DNA of 64,000 nucleotides from Streptomyces mirabilis. Lineage in GTDB: Bacteria > Actinomycetota > Actinomycetes > Streptomycetales > Streptomycetaceae. Shown piece by piece: positions 18,346-38,595 of the stretch; position 1 is the first letter of the stretch, and each line of letters opens with the position of its first letter. The position numbers and the translations under genes are program-made. Under the pieces are notes generated by a model. The model saw nothing but the letters and a program-made list of their open reading frames with translations. It had not been told where the DNA came from and did not search any database. The stretch lies in the NCBI RefSeq assembly GCF_018310535.1, contig NZ_CP074102.1, positions 8,432,001 to 8,496,000 on the forward strand, written 5' to 3'.

Positions 18346-18386
18346 CGGTTCACTGCTCCTTGGGAAAGGTGGTTGCTCCTGTGTGT

Positions 18387-21552: not shown

Positions 21553-21572
21553 TCTGTCTGATGAAATTATAG

Positions 21573-21584
21573 GCAACCGGTTGC
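21573..21584. promoter_or_regulatory. Predicted LacI-type operator 3
   Basis: GCAACCGGTTGC is a perfect 12-bp palindrome in the 56-base gap between the lyase stop and the DUF2264 start, just before the GGAGG site. It suggests a second regulated promoter or roadblock inside the operon. Confidence 0.75.
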
Positions 21585-21608
21585 ACGCTGGGAGGCTTGA
21601 TCCATACG

Positions 21609-23369
21609 ATGGCGGCCATGCCCACCCCGTCACAGCTGTTCGGCCCAGCCCCCACCACCCGGGAGGGCTGGGCCGACGCGCTGCTCGCCCTTGCCGCACC
21701 GGCCACGTGCATGGCGGCCGCCGGGCCCGAGCGCATGCCGGTCTACCCGAGCATGAGCGACCGTGGGGCGGTCTGGTTCGAACTCGTCGCCCGCCCGCTG
21801 TGGGGACTCGCCGGGCACGCCGCCGGCGGCCTGTCCGGCGCGGACCGGCAGTGGGACGAACTGCGCCGCGCGTTGACGGCCGCCGTCGACCCCGAACATC
21901 CCTGGTACGTGGGCCGACCGGCCGACATGGACCAGCGCCTCGTCGAATCCGCCGCCGTCGGCTACGCCCTTGCCGTCGCGAAGGACCGGCTCTGGGATCC
22001 CCTCACCGAACGGCAGCGGGAACAGCTCGCCGACTGGCTGTCGGCGGCGGCGTCGGCAACGCCCTTTGACAACAACTGGTGCTTCTTCCCTGTGCTCGCC
22101 GCCGTGGGACTGCGTTCGGTGGGCGTACCCGTGGACGAGGGGCGGGTGGCCGCGCATCTGGATCGCATCGAGGACTTCGCACTGCGCGACGGCTGGTATG
22201 CCGACGGGCCCGGCACGCCCGAGCGGCCCGGCTCCCGCGACTACTACGTCCCGTTCGGGTTCCATTTCTACGGGCTCCTGCTGGCGTCGTTGAAAGCGGT
22301 CGACGACGAGCGGTGCCGACGCTACGGGCAGCGGGCGACCGAGTTCGCGGCGCAGTTCCAGCACTGGTTCGCCGCCGACGGAGCCGCCGTGCCCTTCGGC
22401 CGCAGCCTCGGCTACCGGTTCGCCCAGGGCTCCTTCTGGTCGGCGCTGGCCGCGGCCGACCTACCCGCCGTCGACTGGGCCACCGCGCGCACCCTGGCGC
22501 AGCGCAACCTCGGCTGGTGGTGGCAGCAGCCGATCCTTGCCGAGGACGGCTCCCTCACTGTCGGCTACGCCTACCCGAACGCCGGTGTCGTCGAGCAGTA
22601 CATGGCCGGCGGGTCGCCGTACTGGGGCATGAAGATCTTCGCGAGCCTCGCCGCGGCCGACCATCATCCATTCTGGACGGCGACGCCCGCGTCGGACCTG
22701 CATCCTCGCGTCAGCCCGCAACCGGCCGCGGCGATGATCCTCGCGCGGGACGCGGCGGGGGATGTCATCGCGCTCGCCGGGCAGAACGCGCCCGGCTGGA
22801 ACCCCCGTGGCGGGAACGCCAAGTACGCGAAGTTCGCCTACTCCACCCTTGCCGGGGTCAGTGTGCCCACCGGCGAACCGGCCCTGGACCAGGGCGGCTT
22901 CGACAGCGCGCTGGCCCTGTCCGACGACGGCGAACACTGGCGCACGCGGTCCGCCGGAGAGTCCGGGATCGACGGCGAGACCCTGGTCGTGCGCTGGCGG
23001 CCGTGGCCGGACGTGGTCGTCGACACCCGACTGCGGCACGTCGACGGCGGGCACGTCCGCGAGCACCGCATCACCACCGGGCGCCGGCTGTACACGGCCG
23101 AAGGCGCGTTCTGCGTCCCGAAGACCGGCCTCGGCGCGACGCCCCACAACGTCACGGAGCGCCCCGGCCTGGCCCGGGCGACGGCCGACGTGACCGTCAG
23201 CGAGATCGTCTGCCTGGCCGCCGACGAGTCACCACGCGACGGCGTCGTCGTGCTGCAGATGCCGGGCTCCCACCTCCTGTACCCGCGCACGGTCCTTCCG
23301 GCTCTGCGAGGCGTCCTCGATCCGGGCGAGCACACCCTGCGCTGCCGTGTTTCCCTCACCCGCCGGTGA
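21609..23369 (+). CDS. DUF2264 protein, probable polysaccharide-degradation enzyme
   Basis: A 586-residue cytoplasmic protein of the DUF2264 family, a mostly alpha/alpha-barrel group found with uronate lyases. The N-terminal region reads TREGWADALLALAAP and RLVESAAVGYALAVAKDRLW, followed by NNWCFFPVLAAVGL and DGWYADG, typical toroid segments. A C-terminal beta region runs from about VVVDTRLRHVDGGHVREHRI. Family members are thought to act on unsaturated oligosaccharides, but no catalytic residue can be named here. I chose ATG 21609, 13 bases after GGAGG; ATG 21618 is also possible. It follows the lyase with an operator between them. Confidence 0.8.
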   Translation: MAAMPTPSQLFGPAPTTREGWADALLALAAPATCMAAAGPERMPVYPSMSDRGAVWFELVARPLWGLAGHAAGGLSGADRQWDELRRALTAAVDPEHPWYVGRPADMDQRLVESAAVGYALAVAKDRLWDPLTERQREQLADWLSAAASATPFDNNWCFFPVLAAVGLRSVGVPVDEGRVAAHLDRIEDFALRDGWYADGPGTPERPGSRDYYVPFGFHFYGLLLASLKAVDDERCRRYGQRATEFAAQFQHWFAADGAAVPFGRSLGYRFAQGSFWSALAAADLPAVDWATARTLAQRNLGWWWQQPILAEDGSLTVGYAYPNAGVVEQYMAGGSPYWGMKIFASLAAADHHPFWTATPASDLHPRVSPQPAAAMILARDAAGDVIALAGQNAPGWNPRGGNAKYAKFAYSTLAGVSVPTGEPALDQGGFDSALALSDDGEHWRTRSAGESGIDGETLVVRWRPWPDVVVDTRLRHVDGGHVREHRITTGRRLYTAEGAFCVPKTGLGATPHNVTERPGLARATADVTVSEIVCLAADESPRDGVVVLQMPGSHLLYPRTVLPALRGVLDPGEHTLRCRVSLTRR

Positions 23370-23433
23370 TGACAGCGCCATCCGAAGGGGCAGCGGGTGG
23401 CGATAAAGATCGTTTTCCAGCACTGGAGCGTGC

Positions 23434-24111
23434 ATGTCCACCAGACAGGTTCTCGTGTACACAGCGACCGCCGCATACCGGCACGAGTCCATTCCCGCCG
23501 CCGTCGCCGCCATCGGCGAGCTGGGCGCCGAGCACGGTTTCAAGGTCCACGCCACTGAGGAGCCACTGCGTTCCCTCGACGGGTACGACGCGGTCGTGTT
23601 CCTGTCGACCAGCGGCGAAGTCCTCGACGAAGCGGGCCGGGTGGCACTGCTCGATCACATCGCGGGAGGCGGGGGATTCTTGGGCGTTCACTCCGCCGCC
23701 TGCACCGAGTACGAGTGGCCCGCCTACGGCGAACTCCTCGGCGCCAGGTTCGCCGGACATCCCCCGGTGCAGCCGGCCGTACTCACCGTCGACCGCTCAC
23801 ATCCGGCCACCGCACACCTTCCCCGGCAGTGGCACTGGACCGACGAGTGGTACGACTTCAGGTCACCGCCCCGCGACGTCACTGTCCTGGCCACCGTCGA
23901 CGAAGCGACCTACGTCGGCGGCGGTATGGGCGTCGGCCATCCCCTCGTCTGGCACCGGCGCCATGGCCGCGGACGCAGCTTCTACACTGCGCTCGGCCAT
24001 GCGACCGAGGCCTACGGCGACCCGGTCTTTCGGGCCCACCTGCTCGGCGCCCTGCGATGGGTTGCCTCCTGGCCGGAGGGAACGGAGCGTTTGTCGGGGC
24101 GCTCCCTGTGA
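23434..24111 (+). CDS. ThuA-like domain protein
   Basis: A 225-residue protein of the ThuA (trehalose utilization) glutamine-amidotransferase-like fold. Visible motifs are VLVYTATAAYRHESIPAA at the start, FLSTSGEVLDEAGR, then GGGGFLGVHSAACTEYEWPAYG, WTDEWYDF and RGRSFYTALGHATEAYGDP, the usual ThuA series. The exact reaction is not established for the family; it often occurs in sugar-degradation loci with oxidoreductases. It is the third gene of the lyase operon and is followed by a strong hairpin at 24116-24143. Confidence 0.88.
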   Translation: MSTRQVLVYTATAAYRHESIPAAVAAIGELGAEHGFKVHATEEPLRSLDGYDAVVFLSTSGEVLDEAGRVALLDHIAGGGGFLGVHSAACTEYEWPAYGELLGARFAGHPPVQPAVLTVDRSHPATAHLPRQWHWTDEWYDFRSPPRDVTVLATVDEATYVGGGMGVGHPLVWHRRHGRGRSFYTALGHATEAYGDPVFRAHLLGALRWVASWPEGTERLSGRSL

Positions 24112-24312: not shown

Positions 24313-24906
24313 CTAGCGAGGCGCGTTCTGTACGGCGAGGATGCGCACCCCGAGGATGTCCTGATCCTCCGTCAGAACCCGCCAGCGGTGCGGGGTTCCG
24401 CCTGGGTAGAGCAGGCTGTCTCCGGCCGAGAGCCGGTGCAGTTCGCGGCCGCCGGGGCCCAGCAGGTCGACCTCGATCGCGCCGTGCACCACATAGAGGA
24501 ACTCGTCGCCCGGGTGGTCGTAGTACTCCTCGAAGCCGGTGGGTCCTCCGGTGTACTCGACCGGGTGGACGGCGAATTGGGGTGCCCCGAGCATCCGGGC
24601 CGAGCCGCCGCTGTTGGCGACGGGGGTGCCGGTCCCTTCCCGTACGACATGGATGTCGGCGGGGGAGGTGGCCGAGTGCGCCAGCAGGGCCTGCTGGGTG
24701 GTGCCGAGTGCCTGGGCGATCCGGTGCAGCGAGGGCATGCTCGGGCGGGTCAGCCCGCGCTCCAGCTGGCTGAGGAAGGGGTGCGAAAGACCTGCGCTGC
24801 CCGCGAGCTGGACAAGGGTGAGGCCGCGCTTCTTGCGCAGCCGACGGATCGCGTTACCGAGCTGCTGGTCCGGATCGGCGGGGGTTTCGGTGGGGCGGTC
24901 TGCCAT
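24313..24906 (-). CDS. XRE-family regulator with C-terminal cupin domain
   Basis: A 197-residue regulator. Residues about 15-72 form a lambda-Cro/XRE helix-turn-helix (AIRRLRKKRGLTLVQLAGSA, HPFLSQLERGLTRPS). Residues about 110-190 form a small-molecule-binding cupin (YYDHPGDEFLYVVHGAIEVD, SLLYPGGTPHRW). Such HTH_3-cupin proteins commonly control amine, amino-acid and other nitrogen catabolism. It is divergent from the twelve-gene operon starting at 25012. Two inverted repeats lie in the 105-base gap, and one of them recurs before the importer genes, so this protein is the obvious local regulator. Confidence 0.92.
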   Translation of the reverse strand: MADRPTETPADPDQQLGNAIRRLRKKRGLTLVQLAGSAGLSHPFLSQLERGLTRPSMPSLHRIAQALGTTQQALLAHSATSPADIHVVREGTGTPVANSGGSARMLGAPQFAVHPVEYTGGPTGFEEYYDHPGDEFLYVVHGAIEVDLLGPGGRELHRLSAGDSLLYPGGTPHRWRVLTEDQDILGVRILAVQNAPR

Positions 24907-24973: not shown

Positions 24974-24994
24974 AATGTTGATGTGACGAACATT
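24974..24994. promoter_or_regulatory. Predicted operator of the XRE-cupin regulator, site 1
   Basis: AATGTT-N9-AACATT forms a 21-bp inverted repeat 17 bases upstream of the flavin reductase start. The full 21 bases match the site at 27643-27663 at 19 positions, including the spacer. Confidence 0.75.
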
Positions 24995-25011: not shown

Positions 25012-25515
25012 ATGACCGCGACCACCGCCGACCGACCCGCCACGGCCGGATTCCTCGATGCCATGGCCGCCCTCGCGGGCGGCGTCTGCGTGGTCACCGC
25101 CATCGCAACCGATGGCACACCTGCCGGATTCACCAGCACCGCCGTGATGAGCCTCAGCCGCACGCCGCAGCTGATCGCGATCGGTGTCCAGCGCGGCAGC
25201 CGCACCCTGCCGCTGCTCCAGGACGGCGGCAGGTTCGCCCTCAATATTCTTGCCGCGGACGGCGAATCCGTTTCGCGGCGGTTCGCCGATCCGGCCGCCG
25301 ACCGGTTCGCCGGGCTGGAGTGGACGGCCGGAGGGGAAGGTGTCCCGCTGCTGCTCGCGCAGAGCACGTACACCGTTCTGTGCCGCGTACGGGAAGAGGT
25401 GGCGGCCGGGGACCACCTGCTGCTGATAGCCGACATCGACGAGATCATCGCCGGGCAGGGCGGGGTCAGCGCTCTTGTCCACCACGCCCGCCGCTACCAC
25501 GGCATCGGCGCATGA
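25012..25515 (+). CDS. Flavin reductase-like protein (RutF/HpaC family)
   Basis: A 167-residue flavin reductase-like split-barrel protein. Typical segments are FLDAMAALAGGVCVVTAI, GFTSTAVMSLSRTPQL, then GRFALNILAADGESVSRRFA and the histidine near the end (HHARRYHGIG). Family members reduce FMN or FAD with NAD(P)H to supply a two-component monooxygenase. No luciferase-like or RutA-type monooxygenase is encoded in the operon, so its partner is elsewhere or is the FAD enzyme at 30689. It is the first gene of the operon, with GGAG upstream, and its stop overlaps the next start (ATGA). Confidence 0.88.
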   Translation: MTATTADRPATAGFLDAMAALAGGVCVVTAIATDGTPAGFTSTAVMSLSRTPQLIAIGVQRGSRTLPLLQDGGRFALNILAADGESVSRRFADPAADRFAGLEWTAGGEGVPLLLAQSTYTVLCRVREEVAAGDHLLLIADIDEIIAGQGGVSALVHHARRYHGIGA

Positions 25516-26399
25516 GCGGGCGCGACTGGTTCTCCGTGCGGGAGACCGGACCCGGGACCTTCCTCATCGCCGAGCCGGGGCACGTCAACAGCTATCTCGT
25601 CGTGGGCGACGACCTCGCCCTGCTGTACGACACCGGGATGGGTATCGGGGACATCGGGCGCGAGGTGCGCGCATTGACCTCGTTGCCGCTGCTCGTCGTC
25701 AACTCCCACCACCACTACGACCACCGGGGCGGAAACGTCTCACTCGTGGGCGAGGCCAAGGACTTCGCCGTCCACGAGGCGGGCGCGGACCTGCACGGCG
25801 AGCCCGCACCGCGCGAGTGGCTCGAGGCGTACGAGCACATCGCCCAGGACATGCGACAGCGTTACATCGAGTTGAGCGCACTCTCCGCCGAGGGCTTCTT
25901 CCTCACCGACTCGCGGATCGAGGTGCGGCCCGTCCCCGAACTGACCCAATGGCGTATCGACGCGGTGCGCCCGACCCGGCTGCTCGGGGAAGGGGAGCAG
26001 CTCGACCTGGGCGGGCGGAGGCTGCACGTCCTGCACACCCCCGGCCACTCGCCCGACGGCATCTGCCTCTGGGAGCCGGAGAGCGGCCAGCTCCTCGCCG
26101 GCGACACCCTGATCAGCGGCACCTTCTTCGCCCATGTGCCGGGCGCCGATGTACCCGCCTTCGCCGCATCGACTCGGCGATTGGCCGAACTGCCGGTCAG
26201 AACGGCCCTGTTGGGGCACAACCTCCGCCATCGTGAGGGCCATTACTTCGTGGGACGGGTTGCCGAAGGTTTCGACCAGGTGGTACGCGGACGGACCCGC
26301 CCGGTCCGCCGCCAGGACATGTTCGGCGCGCCCGCGATGTGGCACGCCTTCGACGGCTTCGCGGTACTCACGGCAGCGGAGAACGGGGACGTACGATGA
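25512..26399 (+). CDS. Metallo-beta-lactamase-fold hydrolase
   Basis: A 295-residue MBL-fold protein. The zinc motif is NSHHHYDHRGGN (H66, H68, D70, H71). Later ligands are in LHVLHTPGHSPDG and LLAGDTLISG, the usual third histidine and bridging aspartate, with GHN near the end. The group hydrolyses thioesters, lactones and cyclic amides, so opening of a ring or ester is plausible. It overlaps both neighbours by four bases and is translationally coupled in the operon. Confidence 0.88.
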   Translation: MSGRDWFSVRETGPGTFLIAEPGHVNSYLVVGDDLALLYDTGMGIGDIGREVRALTSLPLLVVNSHHHYDHRGGNVSLVGEAKDFAVHEAGADLHGEPAPREWLEAYEHIAQDMRQRYIELSALSAEGFFLTDSRIEVRPVPELTQWRIDAVRPTRLLGEGEQLDLGGRRLHVLHTPGHSPDGICLWEPESGQLLAGDTLISGTFFAHVPGADVPAFAASTRRLAELPVRTALLGHNLRHREGHYFVGRVAEGFDQVVRGRTRPVRRQDMFGAPAMWHAFDGFAVLTAAENGDVR

Positions 26400-27598
26400 C
26401 GGCGACGGCACTGCTGCTGCGCGGGGCGCGGCTGCCCGAAGGGCAGGTCCGGGACGTACTGATCGAGGACGGGCGGGTATCGGCCGTTGCACAGGCCGGT
26501 CAACTCCCCTCCGTATGCGAGGAGATGCACCTCTCCGGCTTTCTGCTGTTGCCCGCCCCCGCCGAACCCCACGCCCACCTCGACAAGGCCCTCACCTGGG
26601 ACCTGGCCGGTGCGCCGCCCTGCGACCTGCCGGGGGCGGTCGCCGCCTGGCGCGGCTATGCCGAGCAGGTGACCGAGGAGGACGTGCTGATCAGGGCCCG
26701 CCGTGCCCTGGACGAGCTGGTCGCCAATGGTGCGACCGCCGTCCGCACCCACGCCGACGTCCTGCCCGGCCCCGATCCGCTCCGGGGGCTGCGGGCGCTG
26801 CTGCGGCTGCGCGCGGAGCTGAGCGAGCGGGTTGCCCTGCAGATCGCCGTACTGCACATCGAGGCGCCCGACGAAGTCCTGGACAAGGCACTGGAGTTGG
26901 GGGCCGACCTGCTCGGTGGCTGCCCGCACCTCTCCGACGACCCGCAGGCCGCAGTCGCCCGCGCCCTGACCATCGCCGAGCGGCACGGCGCCGGCGTCGA
27001 TCTGCACGCGGACGAGCATCTCCGCCCGGACCCGAAGGATCTGCTGCTGCTCGCCCAGGCGGTGCGGGAGCGGGGCTTCGCCCACGGCGCGACCGCCAGC
27101 CACTGCGTGGGCCTGGGCGGTCTGGACCCGGCCGAGGCCGCCCGGATCGCCAAGGAGGCGGCGGCATCCCGGATCGGGGTCGTCGCACTGCCGCTCACCA
27201 ACCTCTACCTCCAGGGCCGCGATACCCCTGCCCGCACCCCGCGCGGTCTCACCGCCGTACGCGCCCTCCTGGACGCGGGCGTGCCCCTGGCCGGAGGCGG
27301 CGACAACATCCGCGACCCCTTCAACCCGGTGGGCAGGGCCGACCCCCTGGAGACCGCCGGACTCCTCGTCGCGGCAGGACACTTGACGCTGCCCGAGGCC
27401 GTCCACGCGGTGACCACCGGCGCCCGTGCGGTCCTCGGGCTACCCGCCGCAGGGCCGTACGAGGGCGCGATCGCCGACCTCCTCGCCGTACGGGCCGACT
27501 CGCTCTCCGGGGCTGTCGGGGCCTCGTACCCGGACCGGATCGTCTTCAAGGGCGGGCGAGCGGTGAGCCGTACCACGGTGATCCGCGAAGCGCTCTGA
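26396..27598 (+). CDS. Cytosine deaminase-like amidohydrolase
   Basis: A 400-residue amidohydrolase of the cytosine deaminase/CodA type. The metal HxH is in PAEPHAHLDKA (H59, H61). Further on are VRTHADV, VDLHADEH, the ATASHCVGL histidine, and GGGDNIRDPFNPVGRADPLE, which carries the catalytic aspartate and is highly characteristic of CodA-like enzymes. CodA relatives deaminate cytosine, creatinine, isocytosine and other small heterocycles. In this operon it most likely deaminates the imported ring. Its start overlaps the MBL gene by four bases. The operator-bearing gap follows. Confidence 0.87.
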   Translation: MTATALLLRGARLPEGQVRDVLIEDGRVSAVAQAGQLPSVCEEMHLSGFLLLPAPAEPHAHLDKALTWDLAGAPPCDLPGAVAAWRGYAEQVTEEDVLIRARRALDELVANGATAVRTHADVLPGPDPLRGLRALLRLRAELSERVALQIAVLHIEAPDEVLDKALELGADLLGGCPHLSDDPQAAVARALTIAERHGAGVDLHADEHLRPDPKDLLLLAQAVRERGFAHGATASHCVGLGGLDPAEAARIAKEAAASRIGVVALPLTNLYLQGRDTPARTPRGLTAVRALLDAGVPLAGGGDNIRDPFNPVGRADPLETAGLLVAAGHLTLPEAVHAVTTGARAVLGLPAAGPYEGAIADLLAVRADSLSGAVGASYPDRIVFKGGRAVSRTTVIREAL

Positions 27599-27642
27599 CT
27601 GGTCCAGGGCGTAAACGCCCAGGACATCCCCCCGAAACAATG

Positions 27643-27663
27643 AATGTTGATGCTACGAACATT
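27643..27663. promoter_or_regulatory. Predicted operator of the XRE-cupin regulator, site 2
   Basis: A second AATGTT-N9-AACATT repeat, 19 of 21 bases identical to site 1, lies 36 bases before the ATPase start in the only large gap (101 bases) of the operon. It implies an internal promoter for the importer and downstream genes under the same regulator. Confidence 0.75.
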
Positions 27664-27699
27664 GGTGATTGCGGCACAGTCCTGAAGGAAGGAGCCGAC

Positions 27700-28446
27700 G
27701 TGGCGACAGCAGTGCAGACGGCGCTGAGATTCGCAGCCGTCGACAAGCGTTTCGACAGCGGGACCACCGCGCTCTCGGGTGTGGATCTCCGCGTCGAGGC
27801 AGGGGAGTTCGTGGCGGTCGTGGGCCCTTCCGGATGCGGGAAGTCCACACTGCTGCGGCTCGCCTCCGGGCTGGATGCCCCCAGCGCGGGGGAGATCGAC
27901 ATCCCGGGCGGGGACGTCGGTTACGTCTTCCAGGACGCCACCCTGCTGCCCTGGCGGAGCGTCCTCGCCAATGTGGCGCTGCCGGCCGAACTGGCCGGCC
28001 GCCCCAAGACCGAACGGCGCGAGCAGGCCATGGAGGCCATCCGCCTCGTCGGCCTCGACGGCTTCGAGAAGCAGTTGCCGGGGCAGCTCTCGGGCGGGAT
28101 GCGGATGCGGGTGTCGCTGGCCCGCGCGCTGATGATGCGCCCCGCGCTCTTCCTCTTCGACGAACCCTTCGGTGCGCTGGACGAGATGACCCGGCTTCGT
28201 ATGCAGGAGGAGCTCCAGCGGATCTTCGCGGAGACGGGATTCGCGGGTCTCTTCATCACGCACTCGGTGACCGAGGCGGTCTTCCTGGCCAACCGGATCG
28301 TGGTGATGTCGGCCCGACCTGGACGTATCACCGCCGAGTTCGAGGTCCCGTTCGCCCACCCCAGGCCCGCATCGCTCCGTTACGAACCGGAGTTCGCCGC
28401 GATCGCGGGCGCGGTCTCCGGGGCCCTGCGAGGAGACGCCCAGTGA
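27700..28446 (+). CDS. ABC transporter ATPase, NitT/TauT/THI5 type
   Basis: A 248-residue cytoplasmic ATPase. Walker A is GPSGCGKST (residues 42-50), the Q-loop FQDATLLPW, signature LSGGMRMRVSLARAL, Walker B LFLFDEPFGALDE, and the switch histidine in FITHSVTEAVFLA. The LLPW and MSARPGRI segments are typical of nitrate/taurine/HMP-pyrimidine importers. GTG at 27700 follows AAGGAAGGA. The stop overlaps the permease start (GTGA). It forms an importer with the next two genes. Confidence 0.92.
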   Translation: MATAVQTALRFAAVDKRFDSGTTALSGVDLRVEAGEFVAVVGPSGCGKSTLLRLASGLDAPSAGEIDIPGGDVGYVFQDATLLPWRSVLANVALPAELAGRPKTERREQAMEAIRLVGLDGFEKQLPGQLSGGMRMRVSLARALMMRPALFLFDEPFGALDEMTRLRMQEELQRIFAETGFAGLFITHSVTEAVFLANRIVVMSARPGRITAEFEVPFAHPRPASLRYEPEFAAIAGAVSGALRGDAQ

Positions 28447-29462
28447 CCACGAACACCCCGGCTGCCACGCCCGCCGACGCGCCGACCGCACACGCAACCA
28501 CTGCCGCCTCGGTCACAGTCGGCCCGAGCGGCGAACCGTCTGCCGCTTCCGAACCGGCCGTCACCGGTTCGAACGCTGCCGCTCCGGCCCACGAGGCGAA
28601 GAGCCCTGTGCGCCAGTCGGAGGCTGCCACCGACGCCACTGTCACGATTGTCCCGGCCGTCGAGGCGCCCGCCCGCACCCGCCGGGGCCCCGTCGCCCTG
28701 CTCGCCCCCGTCGGCTCGCTCGTCGTCGCCATCGGCCTCTGGTACGCGGTGAGTTACCTGCTCCTCGCCCCCGCCCGCCGCTTCCTGGTACCGCCCCCGC
28801 ACCAGGTCCTCCAGGTCGCCGTCCTCGACTGGACCCACCTGCAGCCCATGCTCCAGGCCCTCGCCCTCACCGCACAGGTCGCTCTCGCCGGGCTCGCCAT
28901 CGCCGCCGCCCTCGGCATCACCGGGGCCGTCGTGATGAGCCGCGCCCGCTGGCTGGAGCGCTCCCTCTATCCGTACGCCGTCATCCTGCAGACCGTCCCG
29001 ATCCTCGCCATCGTCCCCCTCATCGGCCTCTGGTTCGGCTTCGGCTTCACCAGCCGGGTCATCGTCTGCGTCCTCATCGCCCTCTTTCCGATGATCGCCA
29101 ACACCCTCTTCGGACTGCAGTCCGTGGACCGCGCACACCACGACCTCTTCACCCTCCAGAAGGCGAGCCACTGGGACCGCCTGCGCAAGCTCGAACTGCC
29201 CGCAGCGCTCCCCGCCATCTTCACCGGGCTGCGCACCTCCTCCGGGCTCTCCGTCATCGGCGCGATCGTCGGCGACATGTTCTTCAAGCAGGGCGCGCCC
29301 GGCATCGGCACCCTCCTCGACGTCTACCGCTCACGCCTCCAGTCCGAGGACCTCTTCGCCGCGATCATCCTCGCCTCCCTCTTCGGGGTCGCCGTCTTCG
29401 CGCTCTTCACGCTCCTGTCCCGCCTCGCCGTCGGTTCCTGGCACGCGTCCGGCCGCAGCTGA
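28443..29462 (+). CDS. ABC transporter permease, NitT/TauT/THI5 type
   Basis: A 339-residue inner-membrane permease of the BPD_transp_1 type with about six helices after residue 80. The coupling loop reads DLFTLQKASHWDRLRKLELP, followed by FTGLRTSSGLSVIGAIVGD, typical of SsuC/TauC/ThiX. The first 75 or so residues are an unusual Ala/Thr/Pro/Glu-rich tail with no hydrophobic segment, absent from most relatives. A later start is not obvious because the GTG overlaps the ATPase stop, so the extension may be real and cytoplasmic. Confidence 0.88.
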   Translation: MTTNTPAATPADAPTAHATTAASVTVGPSGEPSAASEPAVTGSNAAAPAHEAKSPVRQSEAATDATVTIVPAVEAPARTRRGPVALLAPVGSLVVAIGLWYAVSYLLLAPARRFLVPPPHQVLQVAVLDWTHLQPMLQALALTAQVALAGLAIAAALGITGAVVMSRARWLERSLYPYAVILQTVPILAIVPLIGLWFGFGFTSRVIVCVLIALFPMIANTLFGLQSVDRAHHDLFTLQKASHWDRLRKLELPAALPAIFTGLRTSSGLSVIGAIVGDMFFKQGAPGIGTLLDVYRSRLQSEDLFAAIILASLFGVAVFALFTLLSRLAVGSWHASGRS

Positions 29463-29516
29463 GCCGGCCCCACCCCCTCTCCGCTTCCTCGTCAGAGCCC
29501 CTTCCGGGAGACAGCC

Positions 29517-30689
29517 ATGCCCATTGCCGCCAGAAGAAGCCTTGTTGCGGGACTGAGCGCCTCGCTCCTTGTCGCCGCCACCGGCTGCGGCGCCGGCGCC
29601 ACCACCACCACCGCCGGTTCGTCCGCCGACCTCAAGCCCGCCCCCGCCGCCCAGCGCCTCGACAAGGTCTGTCCCGCCACCGTCGTCGTCCAGGCCGACT
29701 GGGAGCCCGAGGCCGAACACGGTCCGATCTACAACCTTGTCGGCCCCGGCTACACCGTCGACACCGACAAGAAGCGGGTCACCGGCCCCCTCGTCATCGG
29801 CGGCAAGGACACCGGCGTCAAGATCCAGGTACGGGCGGGAGGTTCTGCCGTCGGGTACCAGACCCCCGCCTCGGAGATGTACATCGACCAGTCCATCACC
29901 CTTGGCATGGTCACCACCGACAGCGCCATCCAGACAGTCGGCAAGCGGCCCGTCACCGCGGTCGCCGCGCTGATGAAGAAGAGTCCACAGGTCCTGATGT
30001 GGGACCCCAAGACCCACCCGGACTGGAAGACCGTCGCCGACATCGGCAAGAGCGGCGCCAAGGTCGTGTACCGCGACGGCGAGGTCTTCGCCCCGATGCT
30101 GGTGGCGAAGGGGCTCATCAAGGAGAGCCAGCTGGACGGGAGTTACGACAGCTCACCGTCCCGTTTCGTCGCCGACCCCTCCATCGCGCAGCAGGGCTTC
30201 GCGACCGCGGAACCGTACATCTATGAGCACGAGGTCGCCGCCTGGAAGAAGCCGGTCAAGTTCCAGCTGCTGTCCGATGTCGGCTACACCGTCTACCCGG
30301 AGGCTCTCTCCGTCCGCACCGGTGCGCTGAAGAAGCTCAGCCCCTGCCTGAAGAAGCTGGTCCCCGTCATCCAGCAGTCGGCCGCCGACTTCGCCGCCGC
30401 TCCGGACACCGCGGTCACGCTCATCGACGACATCGTGAAGCAGTACGGCACGAGCTGGGTCTACTCCAAGGGCACCGGCCAGTACGCCGCCAAGGAGATG
30501 GTCAAGCTCGGCATCCTCGGCAACGAGGCCGACGGATCGATCGCGAGCTTCGACAAGAAGCGGGTGACCGACTCCCTGAGGACCTTCGGGCCGATCCTCG
30601 CCAAGGGCGGCGTCAAGATCCCGGCCGGGCTGAGCGCCGACGACCTGGCGACCAACGAATTCATCGACACCAAGATCGGAATGAAGTGA
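29517..30689 (+). CDS. ABC transporter substrate-binding lipoprotein (NMT1/THI5-like)
   Basis: A 390-residue extracellular lipoprotein. The signal SLVAGLSASLLVAATGCG ends in a lipobox with Cys near residue 24. The mature part has TVVVQADWEPEAEHGPIYNL, SEMYIDQSITLGMVTTD, LMWDPKTHPDWKTVADI and GFATAEPYIYEHEV, which fit the THI5/SsuA-like fold that binds pyrimidine precursors, sulfonates and similar small anions. The stop overlaps the next gene by one base (TGATG). The ligand is presumably the substrate of the downstream hydrolases. Confidence 0.88.
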   Translation: MPIAARRSLVAGLSASLLVAATGCGAGATTTTAGSSADLKPAPAAQRLDKVCPATVVVQADWEPEAEHGPIYNLVGPGYTVDTDKKRVTGPLVIGGKDTGVKIQVRAGGSAVGYQTPASEMYIDQSITLGMVTTDSAIQTVGKRPVTAVAALMKKSPQVLMWDPKTHPDWKTVADIGKSGAKVVYRDGEVFAPMLVAKGLIKESQLDGSYDSSPSRFVADPSIAQQGFATAEPYIYEHEVAAWKKPVKFQLLSDVGYTVYPEALSVRTGALKKLSPCLKKLVPVIQQSAADFAAAPDTAVTLIDDIVKQYGTSWVYSKGTGQYAAKEMVKLGILGNEADGSIASFDKKRVTDSLRTFGPILAKGGVKIPAGLSADDLATNEFIDTKIGMK

Positions 30690-32086
30690 TGGCCGTCGAC
30701 CCCAAGGGCACGACCCTGTCCGCTGCCGAACTGCGCCGGATGACCGAACTGGTCGCGGACGACGCGATGGTGGGCGCCGGCCCAGGTGCCACGCACCGCA
30801 CCCCCGGCATCGAGGAATTCTGTGCGGAGGCCGCCGCACTGCTGGGCGAGGATGCCGTCGTACGCGAGGACTCCGCCCTCGACAAGGCGTCCCGCGACTG
30901 GGCGCACATGTCGCCGATCCTCGCCGCCAAGCTCCCCGCCGGTCGCGCCGAGGTGGTGCTGCGCCCGTCCTCGTACGAGCAGATCCAGCCCCTCGTCGCT
31001 CTCGCCCATCGCCTGCGCATCCCGCTCACCCCGCGCGGCAAAGGCACCGGCAACTACGGTCAGGCGATCCCGCTGCACGGCGGCGCCGTCCTCGACCTCA
31101 CCGGATGCGGACGCATCCTGGGCGCGGGCGACGGGTGGATCAGGGCCGAGGCGGGCGCGAAGATGTCCGACCTGGAGGCGCATGCGCGCACGCTGGGTCA
31201 GGAGTTGTGGATGTTCCCCTCCACCTTCGGGACATCGCTCGGCGGCTTCCTCTCCGGTGGGAACGGCGGCACGGGATCGCTCGCCAACGGCACCAACGGG
31301 GACGGTTTTGTACGGGAGTTGACCATCGTCCCGTGCACGGCGGAGGCCGAGCCCTTCACCGTACGCGGCGAGGAAGCACTCCCGTACATCCACGCCTACG
31401 GCACCACCGGCATCACCACGACCGCGACCGTCGCCCTCCAGCCGGCCCACGACTGGACCGGCCTCTTCGCCTCCTTCGACACCTGGACCTCCGCCACCGC
31501 CGCACTCTCCGACCTCGTGCGTCTGGAGCCCGCCCCGCGCCTGGTCTCCCTCGACGAGCCCGGCCTCGTCGAGGCCTTCGAGACCGACCCGGCCCTCGAC
31601 CCGGCCGCGCTCAGCGTCCGCGCGATCATCGAGGAGCGGGCCGAGGACGACGCCCGCGCGGTCATCGAGAAGCACGGCGGTCGGGTGACGGAGGTGCGTC
31701 CCGCGCCGCGCGGTCCCGCCCTCATCTCCTCGCTCTCCTTCAACCACCCCACGTACCACCTGATGAAGGCCGAGGCAGGCTACTTCCACCTGGAGATCGG
31801 CGGCGACGTACTGCTCGGCGACCCGGCGGCGGTCAAGGCCGTCTTCCCCGGGACGGTGCTGCACCTGGAGGGGATGCGCTCGGGGACCGTCGGCATGCTG
31901 ATGGCGCACTACCAGGACGAAGCCACCGTGTACGAGGGGATCGCCGCCCTGGAGGCGCTGGGCGTCGGCGTCCATGACGTCCACAACTGGTACGTCGACC
32001 GGCGCCTCGACCTCGCCCGCGCCGCCGCCCGCACGGCCGACCCGCTGGGGCTGCTCAACCCCGGCCACCTCCTGGGAGCGCGCTGA
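30689..32086 (+). CDS. FAD-linked oxidase (VAO/GlcD type)
   Basis: A 465-residue flavoprotein. The PCMH FAD-binding domain shows VVLRPSSYEQIQPLVALAHR, PLTPRGKGTGNYGQAIP, LDLTGCGRIL and the phosphate-binding STFGTSLGGFLSGGNGG. The C-terminal half is the cap/oxidase domain ending ADPLGLLNPGHLLG, as in GlcD and vanillyl-alcohol oxidases. It probably dehydrogenates a hydroxylated or saturated carbon of the substrate. It is coupled to the lipoprotein gene before it and sits two bases upstream of the creatininase-like gene. Confidence 0.88.
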   Translation: MAVDPKGTTLSAAELRRMTELVADDAMVGAGPGATHRTPGIEEFCAEAAALLGEDAVVREDSALDKASRDWAHMSPILAAKLPAGRAEVVLRPSSYEQIQPLVALAHRLRIPLTPRGKGTGNYGQAIPLHGGAVLDLTGCGRILGAGDGWIRAEAGAKMSDLEAHARTLGQELWMFPSTFGTSLGGFLSGGNGGTGSLANGTNGDGFVRELTIVPCTAEAEPFTVRGEEALPYIHAYGTTGITTTATVALQPAHDWTGLFASFDTWTSATAALSDLVRLEPAPRLVSLDEPGLVEAFETDPALDPAALSVRAIIEERAEDDARAVIEKHGGRVTEVRPAPRGPALISSLSFNHPTYHLMKAEAGYFHLEIGGDVLLGDPAAVKAVFPGTVLHLEGMRSGTVGMLMAHYQDEATVYEGIAALEALGVGVHDVHNWYVDRRLDLARAAARTADPLGLLNPGHLLGAR

Positions 32087-32088
32087 CC

Positions 32089-32862
32089 ATGACCTTCACG
32101 CGTTTCACCGACCTCAGCGGACCGTCGGTCACCGACCTGTCCGCCGACACCGTGGCCGTCCTCCCCGTCGGCGCGATCGAGCAGCACGGGCCCCATCTGC
32201 CCGTCGCCACGGACTACTTCATGGCGGAGGCGATAGCGGAGGGAGCGGCCCTGGCCGCCTCCGACAGCTGCGACATCACCCTGCTGCCGGGCCTCGCGTA
32301 CACCAAGTCCGACGAACACGCCTGGTCGCCCGGGACACTGTGGCTCAGCGCCGCGACGCTCTTCGCGGTACTGGACGACCTCGGACGGTCCCTCGCCAAA
32401 GGGCCCGTCCGGCGGCTCGCGTTCCTCAACGCGCACGGCGGTAACAGTGCGCTGCTGGGAGTCGCTCTGCGCGAACTCCGCACCAAATACGGTCTGTTCA
32501 CCTTCCTGCTGCACGCCGCGCTCCCCGTGGACCAGGGCGGCGCGTCCCCGTCCGGCGAGCTGGGTCTGGGGGTGCACGGCGGGCTGAACGAGACCGCGGC
32601 GATGCTCCACCTCCACCCGGAGACGGTGGACATGTCGCTGGCCGAGCGGAGTGTCCCGGAGCACCTGACCGCCTACGAGCACATCGGCTTCGGCAAGTCC
32701 GTCTCCTTCGGCTGGACGAGCGACGACTTCGGTACGGGCAACGGCGTCATCGGCGACCCCACCGGAGCCACCCCAGAACTCGGCCGCAAGCTCGTCGACA
32801 CCGCGATCGCCGACAACGCGGCCGCACTGCGCGAATGCGCCCGCTTCCTGCCTTCCGCCTGA
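32089..32862 (+). CDS. Creatininase-family protein
   Basis: A 257-residue metal-dependent amidohydrolase of the creatininase superfamily. The metal and active-site motifs are LPVGAIEQHGPHLPVATD, then FLNAHGGNS, and the glutamate in HGGLNETAAML. The superfamily opens small cyclic amides (creatinine), removes formyl groups in FAPy intermediates, and processes mycofactocin. In this operon opening of a cyclic amide is the natural reading. It may be the step after CodA-like deamination or act on a lactam product. Confidence 0.88.
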   Translation: MTFTRFTDLSGPSVTDLSADTVAVLPVGAIEQHGPHLPVATDYFMAEAIAEGAALAASDSCDITLLPGLAYTKSDEHAWSPGTLWLSAATLFAVLDDLGRSLAKGPVRRLAFLNAHGGNSALLGVALRELRTKYGLFTFLLHAALPVDQGGASPSGELGLGVHGGLNETAAMLHLHPETVDMSLAERSVPEHLTAYEHIGFGKSVSFGWTSDDFGTGNGVIGDPTGATPELGRKLVDTAIADNAAALRECARFLPSA

Positions 32863-32901
32863 CCGCCTCTTCCTGAACGCCTGACGTCGAGGACACCTGC
32901 C

Positions 32902-33330
32902 ATGGCCATCCCCCCGCTCCACAAGCCGCTCAGCGAGATCACCGCTCACCACATCACCGCGGGCGACACGGTCAAGCTCGCCGTCCTTACCGGACCGGCT
33001 GACGGCTCACCGACCACCGTCGTCTTCGAGGTGTGGGAACCGGGCGGCACCCAGCCGCTCAACTGGCATCCCGAGTCCGTGGAGACCTTCGTGGTGATCG
33101 CGGGCGAGGGCCGCGCGGTCAGCGACGAGCACGAACGCGACCTCGCACCCGGCGACGTACTGGTCCTGCCCGTCGGCTCCAAGCACCGAATCACCAACAC
33201 CTCGGCCACCGAGCGGCTCTACACCCTCACGATCATGTCCCCCGACGAGGGCTTCGCCGACCTGATCCAGCGCGGCCCCCTCGCGGTGCTCGACGACGCG
33301 GACCTGGCCGTCCTCGGAGCCGCCCGATGA
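32902..33330 (+). CDS. Small cupin-domain protein
   Basis: A 142-residue single cupin. Motif 1 is LNWHPESVETFVVIAGEGRAV with a metal His and Glu, motif 2 is LAPGDVLVLPVGSKHRITNT with the last His. It could be an isomerase, a dioxygenase or a ligand sensor; nothing decides. Its stop overlaps the next start (ATGA), so it is made together with the AtzH-amidase fusion. Confidence 0.82.
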   Translation: MAIPPLHKPLSEITAHHITAGDTVKLAVLTGPADGSPTTVVFEVWEPGGTQPLNWHPESVETFVVIAGEGRAVSDEHERDLAPGDVLVLPVGSKHRITNTSATERLYTLTIMSPDEGFADLIQRGPLAVLDDADLAVLGAAR

Positions 33331-34850
33331 GCGAACTCCTCGACGCCTTCTGGTCGTACGAGCAGGCCCTCGGCGCCAATGACGTGGCGGGCCTCGACCA
33401 CTGGTTCCTGGACGCCCCGGACACGGTGCGCGCCGAGGGTTCCATGGTGCTGAGCGGGCATGCGGCCATCTCGGACTTCCGTCGCGGCCGCAGCGGGGGA
33501 GCGCCGGCCCGTACGGTCGAGCGCGTCCATGAGGTGTGGATCGCCGAGGACGTTGCCGTGCTGACCGCCGAAACGCTGCGGGCCGACGGGGCGCGCGGGA
33601 TGCAGACGCAGGTGTGGCGGCTGATGGGGGAGGGCTGGCGGATCGCGGCCGCGCACGTCAGCGCGGTGCCGGGCCCGGTGGCGGACGAGGCTTTGGACCC
33701 CGCGGTGTGGCGGGTCGTGGGCGAGCCGCTGGTCGCCGGGGCGGAGGCGGGGCCGCTCGCCGGTGTACGTACTGCCGTCAAGGACCTCTTCGCCGTTGCC
33801 GGACAGCGGATCGGTGGGGGCAACCCGCAGTGGCTGGCCGATGCGCCGATGGAGTCCCAACACGCCGACGCGGTAAGGGAATTGCTCAGCGCTGGCGCCC
33901 AGCTCGCCGGGATCGCCCAAACCGACGAACTCGCCTACAGTCTCGCCGGGACCAACATCCACTACGGCACCCCCGTCAACCCCGCCGCCCCCGGCCGCAT
34001 CACCGGCGGCTCCAGCAGCGGCCCGGCGGCGGCGGTCGCCCGCGGCTGGGCGGATCTGGGACTGGCCACGGACACCGCGGGCTCGATCCGGGTCCCCGCC
34101 TCCTACTGCGGCCTCTACGGCTGGCGCCCCACCCACGGAGCCGTCCCCATCAGCGGCCTGCTCCCGCTGGCCCCGTCCTTCGACACGGCGGGACTGCTCG
34201 CCCGGGACCCCTACCTGCTGCGTACAGCGGCGAAGGTGCTCCTGCCCCGGGACGACGAAGCCCCGATGACCACGCTTCTGGTCGACGACGCCCTCACCGC
34301 GCTCGCCGAACCCGAAGTCCAGGCATCCTTCGAGGCGGCATGCCGGGCGCTCTCCCTCCGCATCGGCCTGGAGCTCGTACGAACCGACACCGGCATGGCC
34401 CCACACCTGGAGGAGTGGCTGCCCGCCTTCCGTACCGTCCAGGCGGCCGAGGCATGGGCCGCGCACGGGGAGTGGATCGAGAAGCACCCAGGCGCGCTGG
34501 GGGCCGACATCGAGGCCCGGTTCGCCGGGGGGAGCCAGGTCGCGGAGGGCGAAGTGCGTGACGCCACCTCCGGGCTCCTGTCCGCCCGTTCGGTCATCGT
34601 CGAAGCCCTCCCGCCCGGCAGCGCGCTCCTTCTCCCCGCCACGAGCAGCCCGGCCCCCCGCGCCGATGCGACACCGACCGAGGTCGAGACCGTACGAGCC
34701 GCAACCCTCCGCCTCACCTGCCTTGCCTCGCTCGCCGGGCTGCCCGCCGTCACCATGCCCCGGCTGCGGGTCCGCGACCTCCCGGTCGGCCTCTGCGCGA
34801 TCGGCGCACCGGGCACGGACCACGCCCTCCTGGAGCTGACCCATGCATGA
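33327..34850 (+). CDS. AtzH-like domain fused to amidase-signature hydrolase
   Basis: A 507-residue two-domain protein. Residues 1-115 form an NTF2/SnoaL-like AtzH (DUF3225) domain (LLDAFWSYEQALGANDVAGL, RVHEVWIAEDVAVLTAE, QTQVWRLMGEGWRIAAAHVS). From about 130 onward it is an amidase-signature enzyme: KDLFAV with the catalytic lysine, GITGGSSSGPAAAVA-type Gly/Ser motif (RITGGSSSGPAAAVARG) with the cis-serine, and DTAGSIRVPASYCGLYGWRPTHG with the nucleophile serine. AtzH and the amidase AtzE are separate proteins in the cyanuric-acid pathway of Pseudomonas; here they are one chain. It should hydrolyse a linear amide or ureide. Confidence 0.87.
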   Translation: MSELLDAFWSYEQALGANDVAGLDHWFLDAPDTVRAEGSMVLSGHAAISDFRRGRSGGAPARTVERVHEVWIAEDVAVLTAETLRADGARGMQTQVWRLMGEGWRIAAAHVSAVPGPVADEALDPAVWRVVGEPLVAGAEAGPLAGVRTAVKDLFAVAGQRIGGGNPQWLADAPMESQHADAVRELLSAGAQLAGIAQTDELAYSLAGTNIHYGTPVNPAAPGRITGGSSSGPAAAVARGWADLGLATDTAGSIRVPASYCGLYGWRPTHGAVPISGLLPLAPSFDTAGLLARDPYLLRTAAKVLLPRDDEAPMTTLLVDDALTALAEPEVQASFEAACRALSLRIGLELVRTDTGMAPHLEEWLPAFRTVQAAEAWAAHGEWIEKHPGALGADIEARFAGGSQVAEGEVRDATSGLLSARSVIVEALPPGSALLLPATSSPAPRADATPTEVETVRAATLRLTCLASLAGLPAVTMPRLRVRDLPVGLCAIGAPGTDHALLELTHA

Positions 34851-35595
34851 AATCGGCCCCAACTCCCGCAACTCCTGGCGCGCGGACGCCACTCACGTCG
34901 ACCTCCGCCGCCCGCAGCGCCCGGCCCGCCCCGTGACCGTGGAGGCTCAGCCCCAGATCCTGACGCTCGACCTGGCCTCAACGGCGATCGTCGTCATCGA
35001 CATGCAGAACGACTTCTGCTCGCCCGACGGCTGGCTGGCCTCGATCGGCGTGGACGTGTCCCCGGCCCGCACCCCCATCCCCGTACTCCAGCGGCTCCTC
35101 CCCGCTCTCCGGGCGGCCGACGTCCCCGTCGTCTGGCTCAACTGGGGCAACCGCCCCGACCGCGCGAACCTCCCGCCCGGCGTCCTCCACGTCTACGACC
35201 AGGATGGAACCGGAGGCGGCCTTGGCTCCCAACTGCCCACCGGCGCAAAGGTTCTGGAACGCGACAGCGCGTCCGCCGACATCACCGCACCCCTCTTTGC
35301 GGCACCCGGCGACCTGCACGTCGCCAAGTACCGCATGAGCGGTTTCCACGACACCGAACTCGACAGCGTCCTGCGCAATCTCCGCGCCGACACGCTCCTG
35401 TTCGCCGGAGTCAACGCCGATCAGTGCGTCCTCGCCACCCTCATGGACGCGGCGAGCCTCGGCTACGACGTGCTGATGCTGGAGGACGCGGTGGCCACCA
35501 CCTCACCCGCGTACTGCATGGACGCCACCGTCTACAACGTCCGCCAGTGCTTCGGCTTCACCCTCACCGCCGCCGACCTCCAGGAAGCCCTGTGA
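34843..35595 (+). CDS. Isochorismatase-like cysteine hydrolase
   Basis: A 250-residue cysteine hydrolase. The triad is the Asp of IVVIDMQNDFC, the Lys of VAKYRMSGFHDTELD, and the Cys of FAGVNADQCVLATLMDAAS, in the order of biuret hydrolase, N-carbamoylsarcosine amidase and RutB. These enzymes release ammonia or carbamate from ureido or amide compounds. The gene overlaps the amidase by eight bases and the next gene by four, so coupling is tight. A ureido intermediate is the likely substrate. Confidence 0.88.
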   Translation: MHEIGPNSRNSWRADATHVDLRRPQRPARPVTVEAQPQILTLDLASTAIVVIDMQNDFCSPDGWLASIGVDVSPARTPIPVLQRLLPALRAADVPVVWLNWGNRPDRANLPPGVLHVYDQDGTGGGLGSQLPTGAKVLERDSASADITAPLFAAPGDLHVAKYRMSGFHDTELDSVLRNLRADTLLFAGVNADQCVLATLMDAASLGYDVLMLEDAVATTSPAYCMDATVYNVRQCFGFTLTAADLQEAL

Positions 35596-36653
35596 CCCTC
35601 CTCCAACCCCACCGGGGCCCCGTCGACGGCGACCACTACCTGCCCGCAGACCCGGCCGCGGTCCACTGGGGTCTGCTCCCCAACGCCCTTTCCAAGCCAG
35701 CCCTTTCGGTCCCCACCGGCGCGAGCGTCAGCCTCGACACCATCAGCCACGAGGGCATCCTCGCCGACCAGGGCCGAGACCCGGCCGCCTTCTTCGCCGC
35801 GGCCGGCATCCACGGCATCCTCCACGACACGGTCGAACTCGCCGATTCCACGCGCCTTCACGACCCCGCCGCCCACGGCCCGCACGTGGTCACAGGACCC
35901 GTCCACATCCAGGGGGCCGAGCCCGGCGACGTACTCGAAGTGGAAGTCCTCCGCCTGCGCCGCCGCGCCCCCTACGGCGTGATCAGCAATCGCCACGGCA
36001 AGGGCGCGCTCCCCGGCGAGTACCCCCAGGGCCCCGGCCCCGACCCGGTCAGCCTGGTCGCCACCGTCGACGACGACGGCCGTGGCCGCCTCCCCGTGGG
36101 CGACGGCCGCGACTTCCGCTTCCCGCTCCGTCCCTTCCTCGGCATCATGGGCACCGCCCCCGCAACCGTTGCCCCGGTCCACTCGGTGCCTCCGGGCCCG
36201 CACGGAGGCAATCTCGACGTACGCCACCTCGGCATCGGCGCCCGCCTCTTCCTGCCCGTTGCCGTCGAGGGCGCTCTCTTCTACGCCGGTGACCCGCACT
36301 TCTCCCAGGGCGACGGCGAAGTGGCCCTCACCGCCTTCGAAGCCCCTCTGCGCGCGACCCTCCGCCTCACCGTCCACCGCGACCCCGCCCTGCGCCGACT
36401 CGCATCCCGCCTGCGCGCCCCCTTCGCCGAGACCGACACCGAGCACATCGTCATGGGCCTGGACATCGACCTCGACGAGGCGATGCGCCATGCCGTACGC
36501 GACGCCCTCACCTTCCTCGACGAGCGCTTCTCCGTCCCCGGCCCGGTTGCCCTCGCCTACCTCAGCGCGGCCGCCGATTTCCAGGTCTCCCAGGTGGTCG
36601 ACATCGTCAAGGGCGTCCACTGCCGCATTTCCAAGGCCGACCTGACCTTCTGA
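35592..36653 (+). CDS. Acetamidase/formamidase family protein
   Basis: A 353-residue hydrolase of the FmdA/AmdA family. Family segments seen are SVPTGASVSLDTISHEG, VTGPVHIQGAEPGDVLEVEV, a FRFPLRPFLGIMGTAP stretch, VPPGPHGGNLDVRHLGIGARLFLPVAVEGALFYAGDPHFSQGDGE in pieces, and a C-terminal LSAAADFQVSQVVD. Members release ammonia from formamide and small amides. It starts at GTG 35592, overlapping the cysteine hydrolase stop, and is the last gene of the operon; it fits a final step freeing ammonia from a short amide. Confidence 0.9.
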   Translation: MTLLQPHRGPVDGDHYLPADPAAVHWGLLPNALSKPALSVPTGASVSLDTISHEGILADQGRDPAAFFAAAGIHGILHDTVELADSTRLHDPAAHGPHVVTGPVHIQGAEPGDVLEVEVLRLRRRAPYGVISNRHGKGALPGEYPQGPGPDPVSLVATVDDDGRGRLPVGDGRDFRFPLRPFLGIMGTAPATVAPVHSVPPGPHGGNLDVRHLGIGARLFLPVAVEGALFYAGDPHFSQGDGEVALTAFEAPLRATLRLTVHRDPALRRLASRLRAPFAETDTEHIVMGLDIDLDEAMRHAVRDALTFLDERFSVPGPVALAYLSAAADFQVSQVVDIVKGVHCRISKADLTF

Positions 36654-37973: not shown

Positions 37974-38595
37974 CGATTACTCCGGAGGCGAGGGTGCCAA
38001 GTACTGGCTGCACGTGTTCACCGCGCTGAAGAACCGCGGCCTGGACGATGTGCTGATGCTGGTCTGCGACGGGCTCAAGGGCCTACCCGAGGCGGTGGAG
38101 GCCGTCCGGCCTCGCACGATTGTCCAGACGTGTGTGGTTCACCTGCTGCGGAACTCGTTCCGATACGCCGCCCGTCAGGACTGGGACAAAGTCGCCAAGG
38201 CCCTCAAGCCCGTCTACACCGCACCCAGCGAAGACGCGGCGACTGAGCGGTTCTTGGAGCTCCAGGAAGCGTGGGGCCAGAAATATCCGGCGATCGTGAA
38301 GCTGTGGTCGGACGCCTGGGCCGAGTTCGTGCCGTTCCTCTCCTTCGACATCGAGATCCGCAAGGTCATCTGCAGCACGAACGCGATCGAGAGCGTCAAT
38401 GCCCGCATCCGCAAGGCCGTCCGTTCCCGCGGACACTTCCCCAACGAAGCCGCCGCCCTCAAGTGCATCTACATGGCGCTGATGAGCCTGGACCCGACGG
38501 GGAAGGGCCGCAAGCGGTGGACCATACGCTGGAAAGCACCATTGAACGCGTTCCAGATCGCTTTCGAAGGCCGCCTGACCCCGAGCAACAACTGA
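37972..38595 (+). pseudogene. IS256-family transposase, C-terminal half
   Basis: The frame runs GGEGAKYWLHVFTALKNRG, VLMLVCDGLKGLPEAVEAV, TCVVHLLRNSFRYAARQDWD, and VICSTNAIESVNARIRKAVR with the catalytic glutamate region, ending at TGA 38595. This is about half of the 400-residue family length and lacks the first catalytic aspartate, so it is dead unless helped in trans. Confidence 0.88.

Follow-up and report, generated by a model that had tools for sequence, protein, structure and literature searches.

Organization of the locus

The window analysed here is a 64,000-nucleotide stretch of the 9.62-Mb genome of Streptomyces mirabilis (contig NZ_CP074102.1), in which twelve genes, g1 to g12, occupy positions 25012-36653, all on the plus strand. 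Genes were assigned from open reading frames (ORFs) and profile searches. The first three encode a flavin reductase of the RutF/HpaC type (g1, 25012-25515; PF01613), a metallo-beta-lactamase (MBL)-fold hydrolase (g2, 25512-26399; PF00753) and a CodA-like amidohydrolase, a probable deaminase from its alignment to cytosine deaminase (g3, 26396-27598). These are followed by an importer consisting of an ATP-binding cassette (ABC) transporter ATPase of the TauB/SsuB type (g4, 27700-28446; assigned by profile match, with the start picked by its ribosome-binding site), a permease (g5, 28443-29462; PF00528) and a lipoprotein substrate-binding protein (g6, 29517-30689). The remaining genes encode a flavin adenine dinucleotide (FAD) enzyme, probably a flavin oxygenase (g7, 30689-32086; alternative start GTG 30686), a creatininase-family amidohydrolase (g8, 32089-32862; PF02633, 211 bits), a small cupin (g9, 32902-33330; PF07883), an AtzH-like domain fused to an amidase-signature amidase (g10, 33327-34850; PF11533 and PF01425), an isochorismatase-fold, RutB/BiuH-like amidohydrolase (g11, 34843-35595; PF00857) and an acetamidase/formamidase-family protein (g12, 35592-36653; PF03069, 100.7 bits).

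An earlier note, made from the letters of this DNA, had named these families, and all were recovered on the plus strand by profile search, including six hydrolase folds (Lactamase_B, Amidohydro_3, Creatininase, Amidase, Isochorismatase and FmdA_AmdA). Its description of genes mostly overlapping by 1-8 bases was borne out at seven of the eleven junctions, with overlaps of 4 bases at g1/g2, g2/g3, g4/g5, g6/g7 (1 base if g7 starts at ATG 30689), g9/g10 and g11/g12, and of 8 bases at g10/g11. Gaps were found at g3/g4 (101 bases, with g4 starting at GTG 27700), g5/g6 (54), g7/g8 (2) and g8/g9 (39). Scans for sigma-70 promoters and terminators gave no signal above shuffled sequence, and the window yielded no hit in Rfam or tRNA searches.

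A divergent gene on the minus strand (24313-24906), upstream of and outside the gene group delimited in the earlier note, encodes a 197-residue regulator with an XRE-type helix-turn-helix (HTH) and a cupin domain (Pfam HTH_31 and Cupin_2). Two operator copies were located on the plus strand. Operator 1, AATGTTGATGTGACGAACATT (24974-24994), lies between the regulator gene and g1; operator 2, AATGTTGATGCTACGAACATT (27643-27663), lies before the importer genes in the g3/g4 gap. Both copies share the sequence AATGTTGATNNNACGAACATT. At up to three mismatches the window contains just these two sites, with 0.01 expected, and the whole genome contains two sites at up to two mismatches, a third place appearing only at three. 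Since operator 1 precedes g1 and operator 2 sits in the gap before g4, the genes probably form two transcription units, 25012-27598 and 27700-36653, with an operator copy before each and one regulator for both. The gene set of the single twelve-gene operon proposed earlier is thus retained, but probably not its transcription as one unit. The sequence GGAAGGAG lies upstream of GTG 27700, which is probably the true start of g4, because the ATG at 27640 abuts operator 2.

Conservation of the genes and the operator

Related loci were collected by a scan with a g7 alignment, using one genome per species, and the best 80 of 325 encoded relatives were kept; among these, the closest named relatives of the operon were from Streptomyces. 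A gene was scored as present anywhere in the locus, ABC genes may include paralogues and truncation of a locus at a contig end was scored as absence. Many of the 80 loci are closely related, and the counts are not independent.

All twelve genes and the regulator were found in the same order in 8 of the 80 loci (L013, L014, L015, L019, L020, L021, L022 and L024), so the recurrence of the full gene set is far beyond chance. The six genes g3-g8 were complete in 49 loci, at least five of them were present in 66, and all six together with the regulator in 36. The widely shared core is g3-g8 only, and most other hydrolases are accessory. The locus of S. himalayensis (L017) keeps g1 and g3-g8, with g2 and g9-g12 not seen; the accessory hydrolases therefore look optional, and the core looks to be an importer, a deaminase, an oxygenase with its reductase and a creatininase-type hydrolase. 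Conservation across actinobacteria, suggested by the earlier note as a check, was seen in the shared presence of g3-g8 and, in the eight loci, in the order of the full set; the core also extends beyond actinobacteria. The locus of Actinacidiphila oryziradicis (L026), with an operator, flavin reductase, MBL, a piece of g7 and creatininase and without importer or CodA-like gene, was considered as a minimal module and rejected, since its g7 match spans residues 213-461 only and the copy is probably broken or decayed.

A relative of the regulator was present in 54 of the 80 loci, on the minus strand wherever recorded. The palindrome AATGTTSATNNNATSAACATT was found in 46 loci at up to three mismatches and in 32 at up to two, adjoining the start of a core gene or of the regulator in 44 of the 46; no match arose in Markov simulations of these 80 loci. 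Both operators, including the site before g4, occur in 12 of the 14 Streptomycetaceae loci, the other two being L023, truncated at a contig end and lacking any site, and L026, with one site. Among 25 whole genomes reached via the loci, 23 had a match at up to two mismatches and none matched a reversed control pattern; most of the matching places carry letters already found at the locus. In two Nocardia loci (L068 and L086) the MBL and AtzH-amidase genes diverge from a region with an extra operator, 3-4 kb away from that of the core; these accessory hydrolases are thereby linked to the core outside Streptomyces as well. A xanthine-dehydrogenase-like (molybdenum-hydroxylase) operon of Psychromicrobium carries an operator-type site at its 5′ end (L127, 12855-12873), some 8 kb from the site of the core, and this enzyme may thus be part of the same regulon.

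Frequent neighbours in the 80 loci were a 2Fe-2S reductase (58 loci), a PNPOx-like gene (54), mostly directly after the creatininase gene, an 8-oxoguanine-deaminase/TrzN-like amidohydrolase (47) and an MTHFR-like gene (35), followed by genes for allantoinase (31), uricase (26), XdhC (20), hydroxyisourate hydrolase (15) and OHCU decarboxylase (14). Outside Streptomyces (L029-L092), an MTHFR-like protein and a PNPOx-like flavin mononucleotide protein accompany the core (for example, L038:8156-9244 and L057:12090-12710). Two neighbour clusters, c11 and c15, proved to consist of ORFs running antisense to that of the creatininase, which explains why c15 matched as many as 72 of the 80 loci; c15 was left out of the interpretation.

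The flavin enzyme, the importer and the hydrolases

The g7 protein is a homologue of the flavin oxygenase of PDB 6v42/6v43 (30% identity), with which it shares a PRGxGxGNYGQ stretch; the title of 6v42 describes it as 'involved in folate catabolism'. In sequence and fold this relationship exceeds that to other VAO-fold families, whose members near g7 include alcohol-oxidising enzymes, oxidases and dehydrogenases. The enzyme is thus an FAD protein, as the earlier note had it, but probably nearer to an oxygenase than to the plain oxidase named there. In a tree of 42 proteins, the Streptomyces and proteobacterial g7 proteins formed separate supported groups (98/100 and 99/99), and the branch uniting all g7 proteins against the genome's own paralogues was weak (85/72), with long branches flagged. 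The FAD enzyme is recurrently paired with a reductase, which is a flavin reductase in Streptomyces and elsewhere a 2Fe-2S or PDR/VanB-type protein or an NAD(P)H-dependent oxidoreductase. Most likely, the ring is attacked by the flavin oxygenase g7, supplied by the flavin reductase g1.

The closest folds to g6 were FAMP (formylaminopyrimidine)-binding ThiY and a thiamin-bound binding protein, at 12-15% identity, and its fold fits THI5/ThiY-type binding proteins. This supports an N-heterocycle as the probable ligand, in agreement with the dedicated importer described previously.

In g3, residues H59, H61, H204, E207, H236 and D303 are at least 97% conserved (n = 68 sequences) and align with positions of cytosine deaminase that we take to be metal ligands and catalytic residues. 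Likewise, E31, H33, D42, H116 and E168 of g8 are at least 97% conserved (n = 73), and g2 has an HxHxDH motif at residue 66. The AtzH-like Pfam domain of g10 scored 87.2 bits (cut-off 27), and Y11 and R35 align with the Tyr22/Arg46 pair of AtzH (a numbering offset of 22 being inferred), residues that passages of PMC6219798 report as needed in AtzH. The Lys-Ser-Ser motifs of the amidase are present (K152, GGSSSG at 227 and DTAGSIR at 249). In g11 the Asp, Lys and Cys of RutB are conserved, presumably the catalytic triad of the biuret hydrolase/RutB group; solved D-to-N and C-to-S variants of RutB agree with this role. The deaminase and amide-hydrolase set was thereby supported, its families being present and catalytic residues conserved where checked.

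The labels creatininase-family, CodA-like, RutF-like and RutB-like hold at family level, but all scores fall below curated enzyme cut-offs: 81.7 bits for g1 with RutF (cut-off 254.75), 198.4 for g3 with CodA (403), 90.2 for g8 with creatininase (235) and 118 for g11 with RutB (377.95). Similarly, g12 scored 73.3 bits with FmdA (500). The creatininase motif NGHYENS reads NAHGGNS in g8. Creatinine and cytosine were rejected as substrates because of the missed cut-offs and this altered motif.

Proposed pathway and alternative explanations

Gene content, conservation, the shared operator, the conserved catalytic residues and the fold relationships were observed directly; from these we infer every reaction, the reaction order, the substrate and the repressor role of the regulator. 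On balance, the genes appear to form a catabolic regulon induced by its substrate, which would be an N-heterocycle of the aminopyrimidine type and most likely a pteridine from folate or pterins. A pteridine is favoured because of the 6v42 title, the aminopyrimidine-type binding protein, the deaminase, and the molybdenum-hydroxylase and purine genes in relatives. The XRE-cupin regulator would bind AATGTT-N9-AACATT before both units and be released when a pathway compound occupies the cupin pocket. The compound would be taken up by the g4-g6 importer, and g3 would take off an exocyclic amino group (for a pterin, giving a lumazine type). Reduced with the help of g1, g7 would then attack or open the ring using O2, exposing a cyclic amide or formamide for hydrolysis by g8. 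Subsequent cleavage of ureide and amide bonds, yielding ammonia and CO2, would in Streptomyces fall to g2, g10 with its AtzH domain, g11 and g12. Import and stepwise stripping of an N-heterocycle, as proposed earlier, fit the importer and the deaminase/amide-hydrolase set, but the ring is more likely attacked by a flavin oxygenase.

Several observations weigh against this scheme. The folate label comes from one PDB title, behind which no paper was found in the literature searched, and g7 may act on another ring than a folate-derived one, since it is only 30% identical to 6v42. A Pfam survey of the neighbours (83 of 147 unlabelled ORFs that passed length and score filters, from 35 of the 80 loci) found no recurrent folate-specific genes, such as carboxypeptidase G or aminobenzoyl-glutamate hydrolase, among the 25 most frequent of 110 families. 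Neither a g1-type nor a 2Fe-2S reductase was present in 9 of the 80 loci; six of these are on cut or short contigs, and L027, L028 and L033 are not. VAO-fold flavoproteins often work without a separate reductase, so g1 may serve something other than g7. Fewer than five of the six core genes were found in 14 loci, and 34 had no operator at up to three mismatches. Some of the two-mismatch places in whole genomes look off-locus, and the Psychromicrobium site itself has two mismatches. Finally, urate genes lie within 10 kb in none of the 14 Streptomycetaceae loci.

This last count also opposes the leading alternative, which we regard as unlikely, namely a purine or purine derivative as substrate (guanine-type, 8-oxo- or N-alkylpurine), with the urate-allantoin route receiving the products of the module. 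In its favour, 29 of the 80 loci contain two or more urate-route genes, the 8-oxoguanine-deaminase/TrzN-like gene is frequent, guanine deaminase occurs in six loci, and the Psychromicrobium operator-type site points the same way. In addition to the Streptomycetaceae count, the purine alternative is opposed by the 6v42 title, by the pyrimidines held by the closest binding-protein folds and by the 11 proteobacterial regions read, in which no uricase was annotated (their gene tables being incomplete).

It is less probable still that the substrate is thiamin or its pyrimidine half (hydroxymethylpyrimidine, HMP, or FAMP), imported by g6, deaminated at the 4-amino group by g3, oxidised at the hydroxymethyl group or ring by g7 and dismantled by the amidohydrolases. 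The nearest folds of g6 and the alcohol-oxidising enzymes among the fold neighbours of g7 would suit such a route, but g6 is just 12-15% identical to those proteins, 6v42 is titled folate catabolism, and thiamin would not account for the urate and xanthine dehydrogenase genes in the neighbourhood of the core. A purely hydrolytic pathway (deamination, creatininase- or MBL-type ring opening, then ureide/amide cleavage), with g7 as a side-chain oxidase, accords with the presence of six hydrolase types, whose catalytic residues proved conserved wherever they were checked, and with the oxidases and dehydrogenases in the g7 fold family, but is the least probable, since L017 keeps the FAD enzyme and reductase while its accessory hydrolases look dispensable, and the nearest solved relative of g7 is titled an oxygenase.

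Within the favoured pteridine scheme, a bolder proposal, which we hold as tentative and rather doubtful, is that the module supplies a route so far missing in bacteria, by which the pterin ring would be destroyed completely through import, deamination, VAO-fold flavin oxygenation and creatininase-type amide hydrolysis. Two exits would follow: the xanthine-urate-allantoin route in Microbacteriaceae and allies, and in Streptomyces and Nocardia their own ureide/amide hydrolases under the same operator. Older work reportedly described conversion of tetraoxypteridine to xanthine-8-carboxylate; this was unconfirmed in the literature searched and was not used as evidence.

Genomic context

A g7 relative at E ≤ 1e-100 was present in 9 of 392 genomes of the genus, the present one included. 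Two transposase fragments, one of the Mutator family (38014-38595, plus strand) and one of DDE type (39232-39651, minus strand), follow the operon at distances of 1.4 and 2.6 kb and, with this patchy presence, hint at horizontal gain. Directly upstream, 15849-24111 is a probable polysaccharide-use locus encoding a family 8 polysaccharide lyase with CBM96, a DUF2264 protein, a ThuA-like protein, a solute-binding protein and a hydroxyacid dehydrogenase. A 943-residue Cache-GAF-SpoIIE phosphatase with an ATPase domain is encoded at 44837-47668 on the minus strand.

Comparison with known systems

No description of the whole cluster was found in the literature searched on the gene set, 6v42 and folate/pterin catabolism, which covered few subscription journals. 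The cluster may thus be called undescribed, as in the earlier note, but not every enzyme in it, as PDB 6v42 carries its folate catabolism label. The refuting case named in the earlier note, a gene set already linked to a known substrate, therefore applies only in part: one enzyme family has such a label by title, and the literature searched gave no paper on the set.

The Rhizobium/Agrobacterium clusters with relatives of 6v42 likewise have a homologous FAD enzyme (RL_RS34470 in Rhizobium 3841) beside a CodA-like protein, a creatininase-family protein, an ABC importer and a reductase. They differ in the 30% identity to g7, in LysR/TetR regulators in most of the 11 regions read and in RidA, presumably of the RutC type; AtzH-amidase, isochorismatase and FmdA genes were annotated in none of the 11 and matched in none of the four tested. 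Such clusters (L093-L103) were seen on large plasmids, some of them conjugative, that belong mostly to Rhizobium and also to Pantoea, Klebsiella and roseobacters.

The Rut system (RutA-G) has the same logic of a flavin oxygenase, a separate flavin reductase and an isochorismatase-fold amidohydrolase. RutF reduces the flavin used by RutA, according to passages in PMC7662398, and RutB is a ureidoacrylate amidohydrolase by the molecule name of its solved structure. Here, in contrast, the FAD enzyme is VAO-fold and not luciferase-fold as RutA, CodA-like and creatininase-type enzymes and an own ABC importer are present, and the RutF and RutB cut-offs are not reached. From the pairing of FAD enzyme and reductase, RidA in Proteobacteria and the RutB-like hydrolase in Streptomyces, the pathway most likely works like Rut, yet is not Rut. 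No luciferase-family RutA was detected among the 12 genes at E ≤ 0.001, and the absence of RutA, hydantoinase, AtzD and allophanate hydrolase noted earlier was upheld at family cut-offs.

The cyanuric acid operon atzDGEHF shares an AtzH-like domain with catalytic Tyr and Arg and an AtzE-related amidase; here AtzH is fused to the amidase, and AtzD, AtzG and AtzF reach no cut-off among the 12 genes. Creatinine/creatine degradation shares the creatininase and CodA-type deaminase folds, whereas g8 is below the creatininase cut-off and has NAHGGNS for NGHYENS. Folate degradation in Variovorax, as described in parts of PMC9513972, uses carboxypeptidase G and pterin deaminase and stops at deaminopteroate; a deamination step and possibly the substrate class are shared, but the operon here has no carboxypeptidase. 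The Discussion of PMC9513972 closes by asking if bacteria break down pteroate and deaminopteroate, and by what means; how they dispose of the pterin ring of folate past the first one or two steps is the open question addressed here. It becomes directly testable with a conserved module that has a dedicated importer, a highly specific operator and an oxygenase from a named family, and the palindrome with the core genes is a sequence tag for tracing the pathway in many soil, leaf and rhizosphere bacteria. If the scheme is true, g7 would be one more flavin oxygenase attacking N-heterocycles, of the VAO fold. Taken together, the system follows a logic like that of Rut and of the folate oxygenase, but with an operator and with a set of enzymes that is different and extended.

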